Source: a bacterium (GTDB taxonomy: Bacteria; CAIWAD01). Taken from it: DNA of 64,000 bases. Where the stretch lies: positions 79,270 through 143,269 of the forward strand of contig JAUXWS010000100.1 in NCBI GenBank assembly GCA_030685015.1. The letters are read 5' to 3'. The position numbers and the translations under genes are program-made. Below are positions 41,368-52,561 of the stretch, piece after piece. How positions within the stretch are numbered: position 1 is the first letter of the stretch; each line of letters opens with the position of its first letter. The notes under the pieces were generated by a model. That model was not told the origin of the DNA and made no database searches. It was given only the letters and a program-made list of their open reading frames with translations.

Positions 41368-42753
41368 ATGGATTGCTTTCGAGCTTGGGGGGGGCGGGCC
41401 TTGCCTTCCGCCCTTGTCTTGGTCCTGGCGCTCAACACCCACGCCGGTGAGCGGCTGAGTCTGGAGGAGGCCCTGGCGATAGGCCGTGAGCATTCCCGCG
41501 TGGCGAAAGCCGCCCGGGAACGTTACGCCAGCGCCGGTGAGATGCGCTGGGAGGCCCTGGGCCGCATGATGCCCAAGGTGGACCTGCAGGAAGTGGCCAT
41601 CCGCAGCGAGCAGCCCGGCGAGGTCTTCGGCCTGATGATGAACCGCCGCGAGCCCGTGATGGACCTCATCGCGGCCAACAGCATGATGTTCAGCCAGGGG
41701 CAGCCCTACGTGGCGGATCTGGTCAACCCGGATCCCATGAACACCTACATCACGCGGGTGACGGCGGAGATGCCCCTCTTCACCGGCGGCATGATCGTCA
41801 ACCGTGTCCGCCAGGCCGGCCTGGCGGCCGACGCCCTTCGCCTGGAGAGCGGCCGCCGCATCGACCAAGTGGAATTCGACGTGGCCCGCGCCTGGACCGA
41901 CGCGGCCAAGGCGCGGGAATACCTGGACCTGCTGGGCCGCGCCCGGGAGACCACGCGCGCCCACGTCCGCATGGCCCGCGACTACCAGGAGGCCGGCTTC
42001 CTCGTGTCCAGCGAGGTGCTGCGCGCCGAGGTTTACCTGGCCGAGATGGACGAGATGGTGATGCGGGCTGAAAACGGCGCCCGCCTGGCCCAGGCCGCCC
42101 TCAACTTCCACCTGGGACTGGATCAGGGCCTGGTCCACGATCTGGACGGCCTGCCCCGGCTGCCTCTGGCCGACGAGGAGTTGACCGCCTGGACCTCCCG
42201 CGCCCTGGAGGCGCGCAAGGATCTGGACGCGGCGCGCCGGCAGCTCAAGGCCGGCGAGCTGGAGCCCTGGGTGGCGGCGGCGGCCTTCTCGCCCACGGTG
42301 GGCCTGCAGGCCGGCTATGACTGGTACGACGACAAGGTCTTCGGCACGGCGGAGGGCAGCTATTCCATCAAGGCGGCCCTCACCCTCAATGTGTTCCGCG
42401 GCGGCGGCGACCGCGCCCGCCTGGCCCAGGCCCGCCACAACGCCCGTGCCTGGCGCGAGGATGTGGACCGCTTCACGGAGGGCGTGCGGCTGGAAGTCCA
42501 GCAAGCCTGGGGCGACCGGCATTCCGCGAGCCTGCGCCACCAGGCCGCCAGCCAGGCTCTGGCCGCAGCCGGCGAGAACCTGCGCGTGGTGGAGGACCGC
42601 TTTCGCGAGGGGGTGGCGCGCATGATCGACCTGCTGGACGCCGAGACCGCCCTGCGCGAGGCGGAAGTGCGGGAGCTGGTCGCACGCTACGACAGCCACA
42701 TCGCCCACTTCCAGCTGCGGCACGCCGCCGGGCTGGCCATTCTCGACCAATGA
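41368..42753 (+). CDS. TolC-family outer-membrane efflux channel
   Basis: 461 residues from ATG 41368 (GGAGGACAA). Signal peptide (SALVLVLALNTHA), then LSLEEALAIGREHSRVAKAA and the two-fold helical/beta repeat of the OEP family (FEVDVARAW-type strand at VEFDVARAWTDAA; VRLEVQQAWGDRHSASLRHQ). It forms the exit duct of the RND pump encoded downstream. It is the first gene of a six-gene operon. Confidence 0.9.
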   Translation: MDCFRAWGGRALPSALVLVLALNTHAGERLSLEEALAIGREHSRVAKAARERYASAGEMRWEALGRMMPKVDLQEVAIRSEQPGEVFGLMMNRREPVMDLIAANSMMFSQGQPYVADLVNPDPMNTYITRVTAEMPLFTGGMIVNRVRQAGLAADALRLESGRRIDQVEFDVARAWTDAAKAREYLDLLGRARETTRAHVRMARDYQEAGFLVSSEVLRAEVYLAEMDEMVMRAENGARLAQAALNFHLGLDQGLVHDLDGLPRLPLADEELTAWTSRALEARKDLDAARRQLKAGELEPWVAAAAFSPTVGLQAGYDWYDDKVFGTAEGSYSIKAALTLNVFRGGGDRARLAQARHNARAWREDVDRFTEGVRLEVQQAWGDRHSASLRHQAASQALAAAGENLRVVEDRFREGVARMIDLLDAETALREAEVRELVARYDSHIAHFQLRHAAGLAILDQ

Positions 42754-42770
42754 AGACAGGAGATAGCCTC

Positions 42771-43838
42771 ATGAGGACAACGCATGTGGTGGTGGCCGGG
42801 GCCCTGGCGCTGCTGGCCCTGGGTTGCGGGGGTGGACACCCGGAGGGCGCCGCGCGCCAGGCGACTCCTGTGGACGCCACGCTGGCCCTGGTGGAGGAGC
42901 GGACGGAGCCGCGCCCCATCGAGGCGCAGGGCGTGGTGATGCCGGAGCAGGAGACCTTCCTCTCCAGCCGGGCGATGGGTCCCGTCGTGGCGGTGCATGC
43001 CGCCGCCGGCGACGTGGTGCAGGCGGGACAGGTCCTCCTTGAGATCCAGCAGGATCTCAGCCATGGCCAGCTGGCCCAGGCCCACGGCGCCAGGGCACAG
43101 GCCGAGGCGGCCCTGGCCCTGGCCCGCCGCAATCTGGAGCGCTTCCAGAAGCTCTATGACAAGAACTCCTGCTCGGAGCTGGAGCTGGACATGGCCCGCC
43201 TCCAGTTCGAGCAGGCCAAGGGCGCCGTCGAGCAGGCCTCCGGCGCCGTCTCCTCGGCCGGCAGCGTGGCCGACGAAAGCCAGGTGCGCGCCCCCTTCCA
43301 CGCCGTGGTGGTGGAGCGCATGGTCAACGTGGGCGATCTGAGCGCCCCGGGCCGTCCCCTCTTCCGCCTGCAGTCGCAGACAGGACGCCGCCTGTGGCTG
43401 GCCGTGCGCGAGACGGACGCCCCCCACGTCAAGGTCGGCATGGAGCTGCCCGTCACCCTGGACAGCCGGCCCGACCTGGGCACCATCGCCGGCCGCGTGG
43501 TGGAGATCGTGCCCGCCGCCGACATGGCCACCCACACCATCACCGTGCGGGTCGACCTGGGGCGCGGTCCCATCATGAGCGGCCTCTCGGGCAAGGCCCT
43601 CATCCCGGGCGACGAGCGCCGGGTGCTCCTGGCCCCCGGCGAGGCCATCCATCGGGCGGGCGGCCTCGCCCTGGCCACCGTGGTGGACGCCGATGGCCTG
43701 GCCCGCACCCGCGCCGTGACGACGGGATCCCGCCGCGACGGATTTGTCGAGGTGCTGAGCGGCCTGTCCGCCGGCGACCGCGTGGTCAGCCCCCTGACGG
43801 CCCCCATCGCCGACGGCACGCCCGTCCGCGCCAACTGA
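42771..43838 (+). CDS. RND-pump periplasmic adaptor lipoprotein
   Basis: 355 residues from ATG 42771 (AGGAGATAGCCTC). Lipobox LALLALGCGGG. The lipoyl/barrel-sandwich hybrid has halves VVAVHAAAGDVVQAGQVLLE and VRAPFHAVVVERMVNVGDL, split by a helical hairpin of A/Q-rich repeats. It links the inner pump with the TolC channel. Confidence 0.92.
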   Translation: MRTTHVVVAGALALLALGCGGGHPEGAARQATPVDATLALVEERTEPRPIEAQGVVMPEQETFLSSRAMGPVVAVHAAAGDVVQAGQVLLEIQQDLSHGQLAQAHGARAQAEAALALARRNLERFQKLYDKNSCSELELDMARLQFEQAKGAVEQASGAVSSAGSVADESQVRAPFHAVVVERMVNVGDLSAPGRPLFRLQSQTGRRLWLAVRETDAPHVKVGMELPVTLDSRPDLGTIAGRVVEIVPAADMATHTITVRVDLGRGPIMSGLSGKALIPGDERRVLLAPGEAIHRAGGLALATVVDADGLARTRAVTTGSRRDGFVEVLSGLSAGDRVVSPLTAPIADGTPVRAN

Positions 43839-43849
43839 AGGGAGCCCTC

Positions 43850-46800
43850 ATGAGCGAGCACAACACCGTCCCGCCCGATGCACCGGAAACCCAGGCGGGG
43901 CGAAGCCTGGCCGAGGTGGAGCGCGAAGCCCTGCGCGTCAAGATGGGCCGGCGCAGCATCGGCCTCAGCGGGCGCATCGCCGGCGCCTTCCTCGACAGCA
44001 AGCTGACGCCCCTGCTCGTGGTGGCCGCCCTGCTGCTGGGCATCTTCGCCGTGGCCGTCACGCCGCGCGAGGAGGAGCCGCAGATCAAGGTGCCCATGGT
44101 GGACGTCATGCTGGGTTTTCCCGGCGCCAGCGCCAAGGAGGTCGAGCAGCGGGTCATCTCCCCCGCCGAAAAGCTGATCTACGAGATCGAGAACGTGGAG
44201 TATGTCTACTCCACGTCGATGCCCAGCGGCGGCATGGTCATCGTGCGCTTCAAGGTGGGCACCGACCCCGACCAGGCGGTCCTGCGCGTCCATGCCAAGC
44301 TGATGAGCGCCATGGATCGCATGCCGCCCGGCGCCATGCAACCCCTGGTCAAGCTTGTCACCATCGACGACGTGCCCGCCGCGGCCTACACCCTGTGGGG
44401 GCGGGGCAAGAGTCCGGGCGAGCTGCGCGCCGTGGCGGAGGAGCTGAACGCCCTGCTCACGCGCCACGACCGCGTGGCCCAGACCACCATCCTGGGCGGG
44501 CAGCCCCGCGTGGTGAAGATCACCTTTGACAAGAGCCGCCTCTCCTCCTTCAACGCCAGCCTGTTGCAGGCCTGGCAAGCCCTGCAGGGCGCCAACTGGA
44601 GCCTTCCCGCGGGCGCCATGTCCAGCGGCGACCAGGAGCTGGAGGTGCAGGTGGGCGACTTCCTGCGCAGCGCCGACGAGGTGGCCACCGTCGTCGTCGG
44701 GTCCTACCAGGGCCGCCCCGTTTACGTCCGTGACGTGGCGACGGTGGAGGACGGCCCGGCCGACCCCACCCAGTACGTGTGGATGGGGACGGGCCCCGCC
44801 GCCGCCGAAAAGGGCGCGTCGCCGGGCCAGGACACGCCCGCCGTCACCCTCAGCATCGCCAAGAAGCCGGGCACCAACGCCGTGGAGCTGGTCGCCGACC
44901 TGGACCGGCTCATCGCCGACCAGTCCGGGCGGGTCATTCCCGGCGACGTGACGGTCACCAAGACGCGGGATTACGGCGCCACGGCCGGCGAGAAGTCCAA
45001 CGAACTGATCTTCCACGTCTTCCTTGCCACCATCTCCGTCGTCATCCTGATGGGGATCATGCTGGGGCGGAAGGAGGCCATCGTCGTGCTGGTGGCCGTG
45101 CCCGTCACCCTGGCCCTCACCCTGGCCGCCAGCTACTTCTTCGGCTACACGCTCAACCGCGTCACCCTCTTCGCCCTCATCTTCTCCATCGGCATCCTGG
45201 TGGACGACGCCATCGTCGTGGTGGAGAACGTGCACCGGCACTACCAGCTAAGGTGGACCAACGCCCGGCACGCCACCATCTTCGGCGTGGACGAGGTGGG
45301 CAACCCCACCATCCTGGCCACTTTCACCGTGATCGCCGCGCTGATGCCGCTGGCCTTCGTCAGCGGGCTGATGGGACCCTACATGCGGCCCATCCCCGTC
45401 AACGCCTCGGCCGCCATGTTCTTCAGCCTGCTCGTCGCTTTCGTCGTGTCGCCCTGGCTGACCTACCGCCTCTTCAATCGTGGCGCGAAGAAGGACGGAG
45501 CGGACCTGGGCCACCAGCATTTCGACCAGACCGAGGAGGAGACGCGTCTGCACAAGGGCTATGCCAGGCTGATGCGTCCCCTGCTGCAGAATCCGCGCCG
45601 GCGCTGGGCGGCCCTGGGCGGCGTGGCGGCCCTCCTGCTGCTCTCCATGGCGCTTGTTCCCATGCGCGCCGTGCTTGTCAAAATGATGCCCTACGACAAC
45701 AAGAGCGAGATCCAGGTGGTGATCGACGCGCCGGAGGGTTACCCCCTGGAGCGCACCAACGCCGCCGCCCGCGATCTGGCCCAGGTCTTCGCCGGCCTGC
45801 CCGAAGTGACGGACTACCAGATCTACGTCGGTACCAGCGCGCCCTTCAATTTCAACGGACTCGTCCGGCACTACTTCCTGCGCAACCAGGCCAACCAGGC
45901 GGACATCCAGGTCAACCTGGTGGAAAAGAAGCATCGCCAGGACGCCAGCCACGACTTCGCCAAGCGCGTGCGCGGTCTGCTGCTGCCCATCGCGGAGCGG
46001 CATGGCGTCAACATCAAGGTGGCCGAGGTGCCGCCCGGTCCGCCCGTCCTGAGCACGATGGTGGCGGAGATCTACGGCCCCTCCGACGAAGGCCGCGTGG
46101 AGGTGGCCCGCCAGGTGCGCGGCATCCTGGAGAGCACCGAGGGCATCGTCGACGTGGACTGGATGGTGGAGGAGAACGCTCCGCGCGCCGAGCTGGTGGT
46201 GGACCGCGAGAAGGCGATGCGGAGCGGTGTCACGGCCGAAATGGTGGCGCGCACACTGCGCCTGGCCCTGGCCGGGGCCGACGCCGGGCTGCTGCACGTG
46301 GAGCTGGACCGCGCCGCCGTGCCTCTGCGCATGCAACTGGAGCGCGGCCAGCGCAGCCGGGTGGAGGATCTGCTCGACCTGACCGTGCACTCGGCCGAAG
46401 GGCGCATGATCCCGCTGGCCGAGCTGGTGCGCGTCGAGGAGCGCCAGCGCGAGTCCTTCATCTACCACAAGAACCTGCAACCGGTGACCTACGTCATCGG
46501 CGAGGTGGCGGGCAGCGCCGAGTCGCCCGTCTACGGCATCCTCAACATGAACCCGCGGGTGGAGGCGATCACCGCGCCGGACGGACGTCCCCTCGAGGTG
46601 ATGAGCACGCACATGCCGGAGAACTCGCAGCGCTACGCGCTCAAATGGGATGGCGAGTGGCACATCACCTACGAGGTCTTCCGCGACATGGGCATCGCCT
46701 TCGCGGTGGTGATGGTCCTCATCTACGTGCTGGTGGTGGGCTGGTTCGGCAGTTTCGTCACGCCGCTCATCATCATGGCGCCCATCCCTCTCACCCTCAT

Positions 46801-47182
46801 CGGCATCCTGCCCGGGCACGCCGTGCTGGGCGTCTTCTTCACCGCCACCTCGATGATCGGCTTCATCGCCCTGGCCGGCATCATCGTGCGCAACTCGATC
46901 CTGCTGGTGGACTTCATCAACCTGGAGATCCGCAGCGGCGAGAGCCTGGAGAACGCCGTGATGAAGGCCGGTGCCGTCCGGTTCCGGCCCATCCTGCTGA
47001 CCGCCCTGGCCCTGGTGGTGGGCGCTGGTGTGATCTACCTGGACCCCATCTTCCAGGGTCTGGCCGTGAGTTTGATCGCCGGCGTGCTGGTCTCGACGGC
47101 GCTCACCCTCGTCGTCATCCCGCTGCTCTACTTCATGTACCTGGCGAAAGTGGGCACCGGCATCGTGCTGGAGAAGGAATAG
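43850..47182 (+). CDS. RND-family efflux pump inner-membrane subunit
   Basis: 1110 residues from ATG 43850 (GAAGGGAG). One N-terminal helix (LTPLLVVAALLLGIFAVAVT), a large periplasmic loop, then TM2-6 including GILVDDAIVVVENVHRHYQ with the paired proton-relay aspartates, and a matching second half ending in IVRNSILLVDFINLEIRSGE. Substrate could be metals or hydrophobic compounds; the ars cluster nearby and the PII-like partner fit metal stress, but the class cannot be fixed by eye. Confidence 0.93.
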   Translation: MSEHNTVPPDAPETQAGRSLAEVEREALRVKMGRRSIGLSGRIAGAFLDSKLTPLLVVAALLLGIFAVAVTPREEEPQIKVPMVDVMLGFPGASAKEVEQRVISPAEKLIYEIENVEYVYSTSMPSGGMVIVRFKVGTDPDQAVLRVHAKLMSAMDRMPPGAMQPLVKLVTIDDVPAAAYTLWGRGKSPGELRAVAEELNALLTRHDRVAQTTILGGQPRVVKITFDKSRLSSFNASLLQAWQALQGANWSLPAGAMSSGDQELEVQVGDFLRSADEVATVVVGSYQGRPVYVRDVATVEDGPADPTQYVWMGTGPAAAEKGASPGQDTPAVTLSIAKKPGTNAVELVADLDRLIADQSGRVIPGDVTVTKTRDYGATAGEKSNELIFHVFLATISVVILMGIMLGRKEAIVVLVAVPVTLALTLAASYFFGYTLNRVTLFALIFSIGILVDDAIVVVENVHRHYQLRWTNARHATIFGVDEVGNPTILATFTVIAALMPLAFVSGLMGPYMRPIPVNASAAMFFSLLVAFVVSPWLTYRLFNRGAKKDGADLGHQHFDQTEEETRLHKGYARLMRPLLQNPRRRWAALGGVAALLLLSMALVPMRAVLVKMMPYDNKSEIQVVIDAPEGYPLERTNAAARDLAQVFAGLPEVTDYQIYVGTSAPFNFNGLVRHYFLRNQANQADIQVNLVEKKHRQDASHDFAKRVRGLLLPIAERHGVNIKVAEVPPGPPVLSTMVAEIYGPSDEGRVEVARQVRGILESTEGIVDVDWMVEENAPRAELVVDREKAMRSGVTAEMVARTLRLALAGADAGLLHVELDRAAVPLRMQLERGQRSRVEDLLDLTVHSAEGRMIPLAELVRVEERQRESFIYHKNLQPVTYVIGEVAGSAESPVYGILNMNPRVEAITAPDGRPLEVMSTHMPENSQRYALKWDGEWHITYEVFRDMGIAFAVVMVLIYVLVVGWFGSFVTPLIIMAPIPLTLIGILPGHAVLGVFFTATSMIGFIALAGIIVRNSILLVDFINLEIRSGESLENAVMKAGAVRFRPILLTALALVVGAGVIYLDPIFQGLAVSLIAGVLVSTALTLVVIPLLYFMYLAKVGTGIVLEKE

Positions 47183-47240
47183 TCACGCAACCGGCCTGTC
47201 GCCGGAGCGCGGCGGGCCGGTCTTCGAACCGGAGGTGGAG

Positions 47241-47429
47241 ATGAACATGAACGCGATCCTGAGAGGCATGGCCGGTTTCTTCACGCTGCTCTCGCTGGCG
47301 CTGGCCCACTGGCACAGTCCCAACTGGCTCTGGTTCACGGCCTTCGTCGGCCTCAACCAGCTGCAGAGCGCCTTCAGCGGCTGGTGTCCGGCCATGTGGA
47401 TGTTGCGCCGGGCCGGCGTGCGGGAATAG
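47241..47429 (+). CDS. DUF2892 (YgaP-like) small membrane protein
   Basis: 62 residues from ATG 47241 (GGAGGTGG). Two short membrane helices (RGMAGFFTLLSLALAHWHSP, LWFTAFVGLNQLQSAFSGWC) with the C-P pair of the DUF2892 family. Members often accompany rhodanese or efflux genes. A role in sulfur or metal handling at the membrane is inferred. Confidence 0.85.
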   Translation: MNMNAILRGMAGFFTLLSLALAHWHSPNWLWFTAFVGLNQLQSAFSGWCPAMWMLRRAGVRE

Positions 47430-47438
47430 GAGGCTGAC

Positions 47439-47723
47439 ATGAAGATGCTGATGGCGATCATCGACAACCGGCGCCGCGTGGAGCTGGAGCTGGTCCTGCA
47501 GAAGGCCGGCGTCACGGGTTGGACGGAGATTCCCGAGGTCCACGGCATGGGCACGACCGGTCCGCGGCTGGACTCGGCCGCGCACCCGGGCAGCAGCGCC
47601 ATCATCCAGGCGCTGATCGAGGACGACCAGCTGGTGGGTGTGGTGGAGACGATCCGCCACTACTGCGACCAGTGCCGGGAGCACATCAAGCTCCTGCACT
47701 GGGATGTTACCATGTCGATGTAG
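47439..47723 (+). CDS. PII-like regulatory protein of RND operons
   Basis: 94 residues: MKMLMAIIDNRRRVELELVL, AGVTGWTEIPEVHGMGTTGP, DDQLVGVVETIRHYCDQCRE. The ferredoxin-like betaalphabeta repeat and the T-loop-like insert match PII-like proteins that are commonly co-transcribed with RND pumps. They are thought to sense metal or a nucleotide; here CDQC and a nearby His could bind metal. Confidence 0.78.
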   Translation: MKMLMAIIDNRRRVELELVLQKAGVTGWTEIPEVHGMGTTGPRLDSAAHPGSSAIIQALIEDDQLVGVVETIRHYCDQCREHIKLLHWDVTMSM

Positions 47724-47810
47724 GATGGATGATGGCGGGGCGGCGCCCTGCCGGAGACGCGGACCGGGGGGATGATGGTAAGGTTCAAGTGGAAAGGAGT
47801 GCCGGGACCC

Positions 47811-47969
47811 ATGCAGGACCTCTTGCAGATCCTGGCCTTTGTCGCGGTGTGGATCCTCCTGCAACGGGTGATCCTGCCGCGTCTGGGCATCGGGACGTGA
47901 ATGTCGGGACCGGCGGGCGGTGCCTGCCAGGTGGATCCCAAGAAGGACGACACCAACGACGGCAAATGA
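47811..47969 (+). CDS. Candidate 52-residue membrane selenoprotein (in-frame TGA)
   Basis: ATG 47811 (AAAGGAG upstream) opens MQDLLQILAFVAVWILLQRV then ILPRLGIGT, a single membrane helix. The TGA at 47898-47900 is followed in frame by MSGPAGGACQVDPKKDD-TNDGK and a true stop at 47967-47969. If TGA is Sec, the product is ...LGIGT-U-MSGPAGGAC-..., a Sec/Cys pair 10 residues apart next to the membrane. It ends the efflux operon. Without Sec it is a 29-residue peptide. Confidence 0.6.
47898..47928 (+). promoter_or_regulatory. Candidate bacterial SECIS element
   Basis: Eleven bases after the TGA, GGCGGGC (47912-47918), loop GGT, GCCTGCC (47922-47928) form a 7-bp stem with one G-U pair. Bacterial SECIS hairpins are known to lie directly behind UGA, with G and U in a small apical loop about 16-37 bases downstream; this fits. 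Confidence 0.5.
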
Positions 47970-50558: not shown

Positions 50559-51413
50559 TCAGCGGAGCAGCTGGGCCACCAGGGAGGGCAGCTGGTTGGC
50601 TTGCGCCTGCATGGCAATGCCCGACTGCATCAGGATCTGGGCCCGGGTGAAGGCCGCCATCTCCTCGGCCATGTCCGCGTCGCGGATCATGCTCTCGGAG
50701 GCGACCGCATTCTCCCGTGAGATCTGCAGGTTCTGGACCGTGGCCTGCAGGCGGGTGACATAGGATCCGATGCGGGTTCGCTCGGTGTCCTTGGTGTCGA
50801 TCACCGCGTCCATCGTGTCGATGGCGCTCTGGGCGGCCGCCGTGTTCAACAGGTTCACGTCGAGCAGGCCCAGACCCGAGGAGGTCATGTCGGCCAGATG
50901 GACGTAGTAGAAGTCCTGGTTGGACACGTTGTAGGTCCCGATGTGCAGCTTGATCCCCTGGCTGCCGGGGCCGACGGCGCCCTCGGCGTAAGTGCCGTCG
51001 ATCAGGTAGAGGCCGTTGTAGTTGGTGACATTGGCGATCCGCGTGATTTCGCTCTTCAACTGCTGGAACTCCGTGTCCAGGTAGCTGCGGTCCAGGCTGG
51101 TCAGGGTGCCGCTGGATGCTTCAATGGACAGGGCCCGCATGCGAATCAGCTTCTCGTCAATGGTCGCCAGGGCTCCTTCGGCGGTGGCCAGCATGTTGAT
51201 GGCGTAGTTGGCGTTGCGTTCCGCCTCGGTCATGCTGGAGATTTGCGCGCGCATCCGCTCTGATACGGCCAGTCCCGCCGGATCGTCCCACGCATAGTTG
51301 ACGCGCAGGCCGGATGAGAGCCGGGTGACCGCCCGATCAAGGGCGTGCTGCGTGTTGGCCAACTGGCGATGAACGCCGATTGCCAACGGATTCTGGTTGA
51401 TTCTCAGACTCAT
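50559..51413 (-). CDS. fliC: Flagellin, copy 1
   Basis: 284 residues: the N-terminal D0/D1 (MSLRINQNPLAIGVHRQLAN, LSSGLRVNYAWDDPAGLAVS) and C-terminal D1/D0 (LQATVQNLQISRENAVASES, AQANQLPSLVAQLLR), with a very short central region (IGTYNVSNQDFYYVHLADM), so the outer D2/D3 domains are almost absent. Its paralogue lies upstream at 51707. Exported by the flagellar type III system to build the filament. Confidence 0.95.
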   Translation of the reverse strand: MSLRINQNPLAIGVHRQLANTQHALDRAVTRLSSGLRVNYAWDDPAGLAVSERMRAQISSMTEAERNANYAINMLATAEGALATIDEKLIRMRALSIEASSGTLTSLDRSYLDTEFQQLKSEITRIANVTNYNGLYLIDGTYAEGAVGPGSQGIKLHIGTYNVSNQDFYYVHLADMTSSGLGLLDVNLLNTAAAQSAIDTMDAVIDTKDTERTRIGSYVTRLQATVQNLQISRENAVASESMIRDADMAEEMAAFTRAQILMQSGIAMQAQANQLPSLVAQLLR

Positions 51414-51706: not shown

Positions 51707-52561
51707 TCAGCGCAGCAGACCCGCCACGATGGAGGGCAGGTTGTTGGCTTGCGCCTGCATGGCGATGCCGGCTTGCATCAGAATCTGGGCGCGGGTGAAG
51801 GCCGCCATCTCCTCGGCCATGTCGGCGTCGCGGATGGTGGACTCCGAGGCGACGATGTTCTCCTTGGAGATCTGCAGGTTCTGCACGGTCGCCTGGAGAC
51901 GGGTGACATAGGAGCCGATGCGCGTGCGCTCCGTGTCCTTCACGTTGATGGCCGAATCGAGGGTGTCAATGGCACTCTGGGCGGTGGCGGTGTTCGTCAA
52001 ATCAACGGATGCGAGGCCCAGGCCGCTGGACGTCATGTCTCCCAGGTTCACATAGTAGAAGTCCTGGTCGGAGACGTTGTACGTCCCAATGTGCAGCTTG
52101 ATGCCTTGTCCACCGGGGCCAGCGGCGCCTTCAGCATAGGTTCCGTCGATGAGGTACAGACCGTTGTAGTTCGTCACGTTGGCAATGCGCGTGATCTCGC
52201 TCTTCAGCTGCTGGAACTCCACATCCAGGTAGCTGCGGTCCAGCGAGGTCAGCGTGCCGTTGGACGCCTCAACCGCCAATGCCCTCATGCGGATCAGTTT
52301 CTCGTCGATGACACCCAGGGCGCCTTCCGCCGTCGCCAGCATGTTGATGGCATAGTTGGCGTTGCGCTCGGCCTCGACCATGCTGCTGATCTGGGCGCGC
52401 ATCTTCTCGGAGACGGCCAGTCCTGCCGGATCGTCCCACGCATGGTTGATGCGAAGGCCGGAAGAGAGCCGGGTGACCGCCTGGTCCAGCGAGTACTGGG
52501 TGTTCATCAGTTGCCTGTGAACCCCGATCGCCAGCGGGTTTTGGTTGATTCTCAAGCTCAT
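51707..52561 (-). CDS. fliC2: Flagellin, copy 2
   Basis: 284 residues, same length as copy 1; I count 36 differences (about 87% identical) with no gaps. Differences cluster at 19-27, 84-101 and 185-215, while both ends are nearly invariant. Tandem duplication followed by divergence. The two may mix in one filament or be switched. It has its own leader and terminator, so is separately transcribed. Confidence 0.95.
   Translation of the reverse strand: MSLRINQNPLAIGVHRQLMNTQYSLDQAVTRLSSGLRINHAWDDPAGLAVSEKMRAQISSMVEAERNANYAINMLATAEGALGVIDEKLIRMRALAVEASNGTLTSLDRSYLDVEFQQLKSEITRIANVTNYNGLYLIDGTYAEGAAGPGGQGIKLHIGTYNVSDQDFYYVNLGDMTSSGLGLASVDLTNTATAQSAIDTLDSAINVKDTERTRIGSYVTRLQATVQNLQISKENIVASESTIRDADMAEEMAAFTRAQILMQAGIAMQAQANNLPSIVAGLLR

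Follow-up and report, generated by a model that had tools for sequence, protein, structure and literature searches.

The window, a 64,000-nt stretch of a bacterial contig, carries on its forward strand an efflux operon of TolC, adaptor (MFP) and RND permease genes, correctly recognized in the preliminary description, followed by two small genes and a short frame with an internal TGA. The features are as follows.

41368-42753, + strand: TolC-family outer membrane efflux protein (Pfam OEP, 7e-39)
42750-43838, + strand: RND periplasmic adaptor (TIGR01730, 189 bits, above cut-off)
43850-47182, + strand: RND permease, AcrB/CusA superfamily (Pfam ACR_tran, 1e-147; under every NCBIfam subfamily cut-off)
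47235-47429, + strand: YgaP-like transmembrane small protein (PF11127, 5e-11)
47439-47723, + strand: P-II-like, transporter-associated regulator (PF00543, 1e-6; NF045581, 44.5 bits, narrowly under the cut-off of 45)
47794-47799, + strand: Shine-Dalgarno-like AAGGAG, 11 nt 5' of the ATG (direct sequence read)
47811-47969, + strand: predicted selenoprotein gene, 52 aa, Sec30 (homologues in >130 genomes)
47814-47885, + strand: predicted transmembrane helix, residues 2-25, N-out/C-in (AlphaFold; positive-inside charges)
47898-47900, + strand: UGA predicted to encode Sec, codon 30 (TGA in 90 of the loci examined; TGC in L049 and L198)
47912-47928, + strand: bSECIS-like hairpin, 7-bp stem, GGU loop at 47919-47921 (hairpin tests)
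47925-47927, + strand: codon of Cys39, putative resolving Cys of Sec30 (Cys after Sec in 64 of 72 homologues)

The permease scores 205 bits against TIGR00914, the CusA/CzcA heavy-metal RND model, short of its cut-off of 701. Elsewhere in the window, on the minus strand, lie two neighboring flagellin-like ORFs (50559-51413 and 51707-52561), 284 aa each and highly alike.

Read directly, the frame at 47811-47969 (+) is MQDLLQILAFVAVWILLQRVILPRLGIGT-U-MSGPAGGACQVDPKKDDTNDGK-stop, 52 aa with U as Sec30. Codon 30 is TGA and is followed by 22 codons, one of them for Cys39, before a second TGA closes the frame; this is exactly as claimed in the preliminary description. Codon 30 can be read in two ways: i) UGA30 is translated as Sec; or ii) it is a true stop, leaving a 29-residue membrane peptide, and the conserved stretch downstream is either a hairpin that is not translated or some unrelated ORF. 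Ordinary gene calling would give the second. On the sequence evidence assembled below, the gene almost certainly encodes a selenoprotein, and a true stop at codon 30 is hardly credible.

The genome from which the window comes (97% complete) has the equipment to insert Sec. Its tRNA-Sec was found by both Rfam and ARAGORN, SelB and SelD score above their cut-offs (for SelB, the curated one), and a SelA-like ORF, identified by reading rather than by a family model, lies just upstream of selB. Possession of selA, selB, selC and selD is a membership criterion for bacterial selenoproteins, and its absence had been named as a refutation of the Sec reading; all four genes are there, selA by reading. 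The SelD frame has an in-frame TGA of its own within the motif CSGGU (G000:C37, L191/L124), and SelD is probably itself a selenoprotein, so that the predicted selenoproteins of this organism number at least two.

The hairpin downstream of codon 30, described beforehand as a 7-bp stem with a GGU loop, is present as GGCGGGC-GGT-GCCTGCC at 47912-47928. One of its seven pairs is G-U, and the loop starts 18 nt after the TGA. At -11.5 kcal/mol (p = 0.02 vs shuffles) it is only mildly unusual at its GC content, so the case rests on the homologues. The bSECIS rule places a G in the first two loop positions and the loop 16-37 nt after the UGA (quoted in PMC13188914). Minimum-energy folding of the downstream 45 nt gave a weak signal (mean z -1.0) and was replaced by a hairpin test under this rule. 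Among 90 TGA loci, the best rule-obeying hairpin averages -9.3 kcal/mol, compared with -2.2 kcal/mol in dinucleotide shuffles, and reaches p <= 0.05 in 69. In 88 of 89 loci, vs 43% of shuffles, the distance from the TGA to the loop start is 15-24 nt; the window, at 18 nt, is within the rule, and two loci, at 15 nt, fall just short of it. Stems are mostly 6-8 bp, the loop most often begins with GG, and the stem sequences vary freely across homologues while pairing is kept. A control stretch further downstream also gave some hairpin signal (z -0.67), partly from overlap.

A protein search of 98 genomes recovered homologues from distant groups, each interrupted by a single in-frame TGA at the corresponding position. 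When a 14-row profile was run over 386 diverse genomes, the family was found in 42, which belong to 33 family-level groups by table count. SelB is above cut-off in all 42 of these genomes vs 169 of the 386 overall (hypergeometric P = 3e-17, a value too small owing to relatedness, though chance would remain a very improbable explanation even if only the 33 groups were counted). Conversely, the family occurs in 42 of the 169 SelB-bearing genomes of this broad sample, about a quarter. A genome of the window's own genus (G001, 90% complete) has neither the family nor SelB. Wider searches added 35 of 195 genomes in the G179 phylum, which includes Anaeromyxobacter (the L186 protein is identical to that of the named record L050 from this genus), 6 of 8 in the G080 phylum and 53 of 82 in the G324 phylum. 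In total, the profile searches place homologues in more than 130 genomes. A scan of viral contigs returned three pattern matches, none of them a relative.

The Sec codon was read codon by codon in 92 loci and the window. It is TGA in 90 of the loci read, and the exceptions are CGA (L104), TAA (L197) and TGC (L198). Another TGC form, L049, was found in genome contigs outside the 92 loci, and its frame continues through the same motif. Homologues with Cys at the TGA position had been proposed as a check and are a criterion for bacterial selenoproteins; L049 supplies one and L198 a second. In the genome of L049 (G586) no SelB match reaches the cut-off, whereas the three TGA genomes tested alongside pass, which is what Sec/Cys exchange predicts. 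The L198 gene (G627:C5:1378067) retains a GC-rich downstream hairpin, GCCGC-ACACC-GCGGC, perhaps a SECIS relic. The L104 frame (G249:C168:3078-3197), with Arg at the Sec codon, has only a very short tail and no start codon that can be clearly assigned, and looks decayed.

The L197 homologue (G640:C54:21468-21593) is the one that favors termination at codon 30: it has TAA there with the downstream motif kept, which may reflect recent decay, an error or a true stop. Against termination stand the conservation of the frame beyond the TGA and its continuation as TGC in L049 and L198, the five genomes in which it runs on to a fused thioredoxin domain, and the presence of SelB in 42 of 42 positive genomes. 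The frame past the TGA is conserved, with M, A, L or G as the next residue and then usually a Cys; in close pairs, substitutions by codon position after the TGA are too few to inform. An in-frame TGA with continued coding, a further criterion for bacterial selenoproteins, is thus seen in the 90 TGA loci, with a conserved frame after the codon and the thioredoxin fusions. Homologues ending at the TGA position had been named as the other refutation, but those found run past it with a conserved tail, and the membrane selenoprotein first proposed is strongly supported by the Sec machinery, the homologues in >130 genomes, the hairpins and the co-occurrence with SelB.

AlphaFold predicts one helix, residues 2-25, with the remainder disordered; the pLDDT is 92 over residues 1-10 and 85 over residues 11-20. 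In 67 of 72 homologues, more positive charge lies on the C-terminal side of the helix than on its N-terminal side. By the positive-inside rule the N-terminus would then be external and Sec cytosolic, so Sec is probably located at the cytosolic face of the membrane (N-out/C-in). The helix leads into the motif (I/V)LP(R/K)xGxxT-Sec, with Thr directly before Sec in 69 of 72 homologues. The preliminary description had stressed a Sec/Cys pair. Cys39 is indeed present and a Cys follows Sec in 64 of the 72 tails, but the spacing is variable (the Cys comes no more than six residues after Sec in 40 tails and is one of the last four residues in 14) and the near-invariant feature is Sec, not the pair. 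Eight of the 72 tails have no Cys ahead of any thioredoxin domain, which means that not every member can form an intramolecular Sec-Cys bond.

Five genomes (L084, L103, L188, L189 and L190) carry fused forms, in which a linker after the TGA leads in frame to a complete thioredoxin domain; that of L084 matches Pfam Thioredoxin at 4e-29. Gene neighbors were counted at 72 loci as near (within 1.2 kb) or far (>3 kb), using tblastn with named neighbors; greedy ORF calls were often in the wrong frame at GC-rich loci. Since the queries were picked after the neighbors had been viewed, the near:far ratios, in which the far counts are the control, illustrate rather than test the association: thioredoxin 11:1 and TlpA-like 12:0 (these two overlap), DUF302 12:1, FmdB zinc ribbon 9:0, PDO-like thioredoxin 4:0, ArsR 6:2, YgaP-TM 5:2 and RND 4:0. 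The listed neighbors are nearly all on the same strand as the selenoprotein gene; at least one lies within 1.5 kb in 41 of the 72 loci, and about 31 of 72 have none. In 20 further loci from the G324 phylum, outside the query choice, FmdB directly follows the gene in 13, and DUF6132, thioredoxin, PDO or DUF302 are also around. In L088, L091 and L098 the genes for ArsR, thioredoxin, a TlpA-like protein and the selenoprotein follow one another in that order, all on the same strand. Another locus encodes, roughly 3 kb away from its selenoprotein gene, a Sulf_transp (YeeE/YedE) protein fused to a rhodanese-like domain (L110:9252-10337).

The window order TolC-MFP-RND-YgaP/TM-PII-selenoprotein recurs, with changes, in two relatives (G002 and G003), and RND pumps are also near L102, L106, L108 and L181, a total of 6 of 72 loci. 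The link to an RND pump, part of the original proposal, thus stands for the window operon but not for the family, whose usual partners are thiol-redox genes; as a general rule it was rejected. This bears on the idea that Sec binds or senses a metal or metalloid (Cu, Hg, As, Cd) for the adjacent pump, as a soft-metal chaperone and not a redox relay. Selenolates do bind soft metals, and RND, YgaP-TM, P-II-like or ArsR neighbors are found in several lineages; in Geobacter, P-II-NG proteins are reported to cluster with CzcABC pumps (PMC7726332, from 2020). The chaperone is nevertheless unlikely: thioredoxin fusions and thioredoxin, TlpA, FmdB or DUF302 neighbors are far commoner than RND, and there is no conserved His or second Cys to form a metal site, eight tails having no Cys at all.

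The thioredoxin fusions, the neighbors and the Cys statistics instead back the redox and thioredoxin parts of a Sec/Cys relay that is tethered to the membrane and kept reduced by cytosolic thioredoxin, which is the reading we favor, with some confidence. In such a relay, UGA30 would be decoded as selenocysteine with the aid of the hairpin just downstream, and the helix would set Sec a few residues past the membrane on the cytosolic side, within (I/V)LP(R/K)xGxxT-Sec. Sec would then react with a target near the membrane, for which oxidised thiols, persulfides or polysulfides, peroxides and thiophilic metal species are candidates. It would next pair with the Cys of the flexible tail as a selenenylsulfide, and thioredoxin would presumably be the reductant that reopens this bond. 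In the lineage of the window, where the gene ends an RND efflux operon, the relay may serve the stress response of that operon.

Two more specific functions were considered. A narrower form of the thioredoxin relay would be dedicated to defence against reactive sulfur (persulfides and polysulfides) under control of an ArsR-type sulfur sensor. ArsR-family persulfide sensors exist (SqrR/BigR), and ArsR, TlpA, thioredoxin, DUF302, YgaP-TM and the Sulf_transp/rhodanese fusion occur in some neighborhoods; neither sulfide:quinone oxidoreductase nor persulfide dioxygenase was found as a recurrent neighbor, however, and this restriction is doubtful. A membrane peroxidase, in which thioredoxin drives the reduction of hydroperoxides (lipid or other) at the surface of the membrane, would suit a Sec at the membrane interface coupled to thioredoxin, and OsmC-like, rubrerythrin and CMD neighbors are seen in single loci. 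It is less probable still, as such peroxidase-type neighbors are rare (1-2 loci each) and the protein has no catalytic fold, its tail being predicted disordered. For the family as a whole, the broader proposal, which we consider about evenly balanced, is that it is widespread and nearly Sec-obligate, and provides the membrane-tethered, thioredoxin-coupled redox peptide of an unrecognised thiol-stress system with FmdB, DUF302 and DUF6132.

None of the 42 members from the broad sample matches NCBIfam (June 2026), and in Pfam only DUF5337 appears, in 2 of the 42 at E = 0.005, which is noise. A PDB profile search found no sequence relative of solved structure. A 2026 review of 119 prokaryotic selenoprotein families (PMC13188914) has no entry with this architecture or motif, and the accessible part of the deep-Sep paper has no such family. 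No account was found in the literature covered, to which bioRxiv preprints and most subscription journals do not belong, and an earlier description is possible. By sequence criteria, this would thus be a tiny, widespread membrane selenoprotein family absent from every catalogue searched. It was overlooked because the ORF before the TGA has about 30 codons at most, and because methods based on Cys/TGA pairs have almost no Cys homologues to work with here.

With the catalogued prokaryotic selenoproteins the family shares the UGA and bSECIS hairpin, the Sec machinery and a likely redox role. In architecture the closest likeness is to selenoprotein S and SelK of eukaryotes, which also have a single transmembrane helix and a flexible tail that holds Sec together with a paired Cys. 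SelS is a proposed reductase with a Cys174-Sec188 bond (PMC3628699). Here, in contrast, the protein has only ~50 residues and Sec is at the membrane edge, ~5 residues after the helix, not C-terminal. The likeness is a working analogy and not membership; the search of solved structures found no sequence relation. GrdA, the glycine reductase selenoprotein A, is likewise a selenoprotein for which Cys homologues are almost lacking, and such cases have been called scarce (PMC1914089); it is soluble and unrelated, and two Cys homologues were found here. The UxxC or membrane-tethered thioredoxins resemble the five members with a thioredoxin domain after the Sec segment, but here Sec is outside that domain and most members do not have one.

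If the Sec reading is right, many bacterial selenoproteomes would be incomplete, as gene callers would end the protein at about residue 29. The family would also show that Sec may be close to indispensable in a selenoprotein family, which earlier surveys held to be very rare (PMC1914089). The protein would offer a minimal, 50-residue model of Sec chemistry at the membrane and, by architecture, a bacterial counterpart of SelS/SelK, and its neighborhoods may point to a function for the DUF302, DUF6132 and FmdB proteins.
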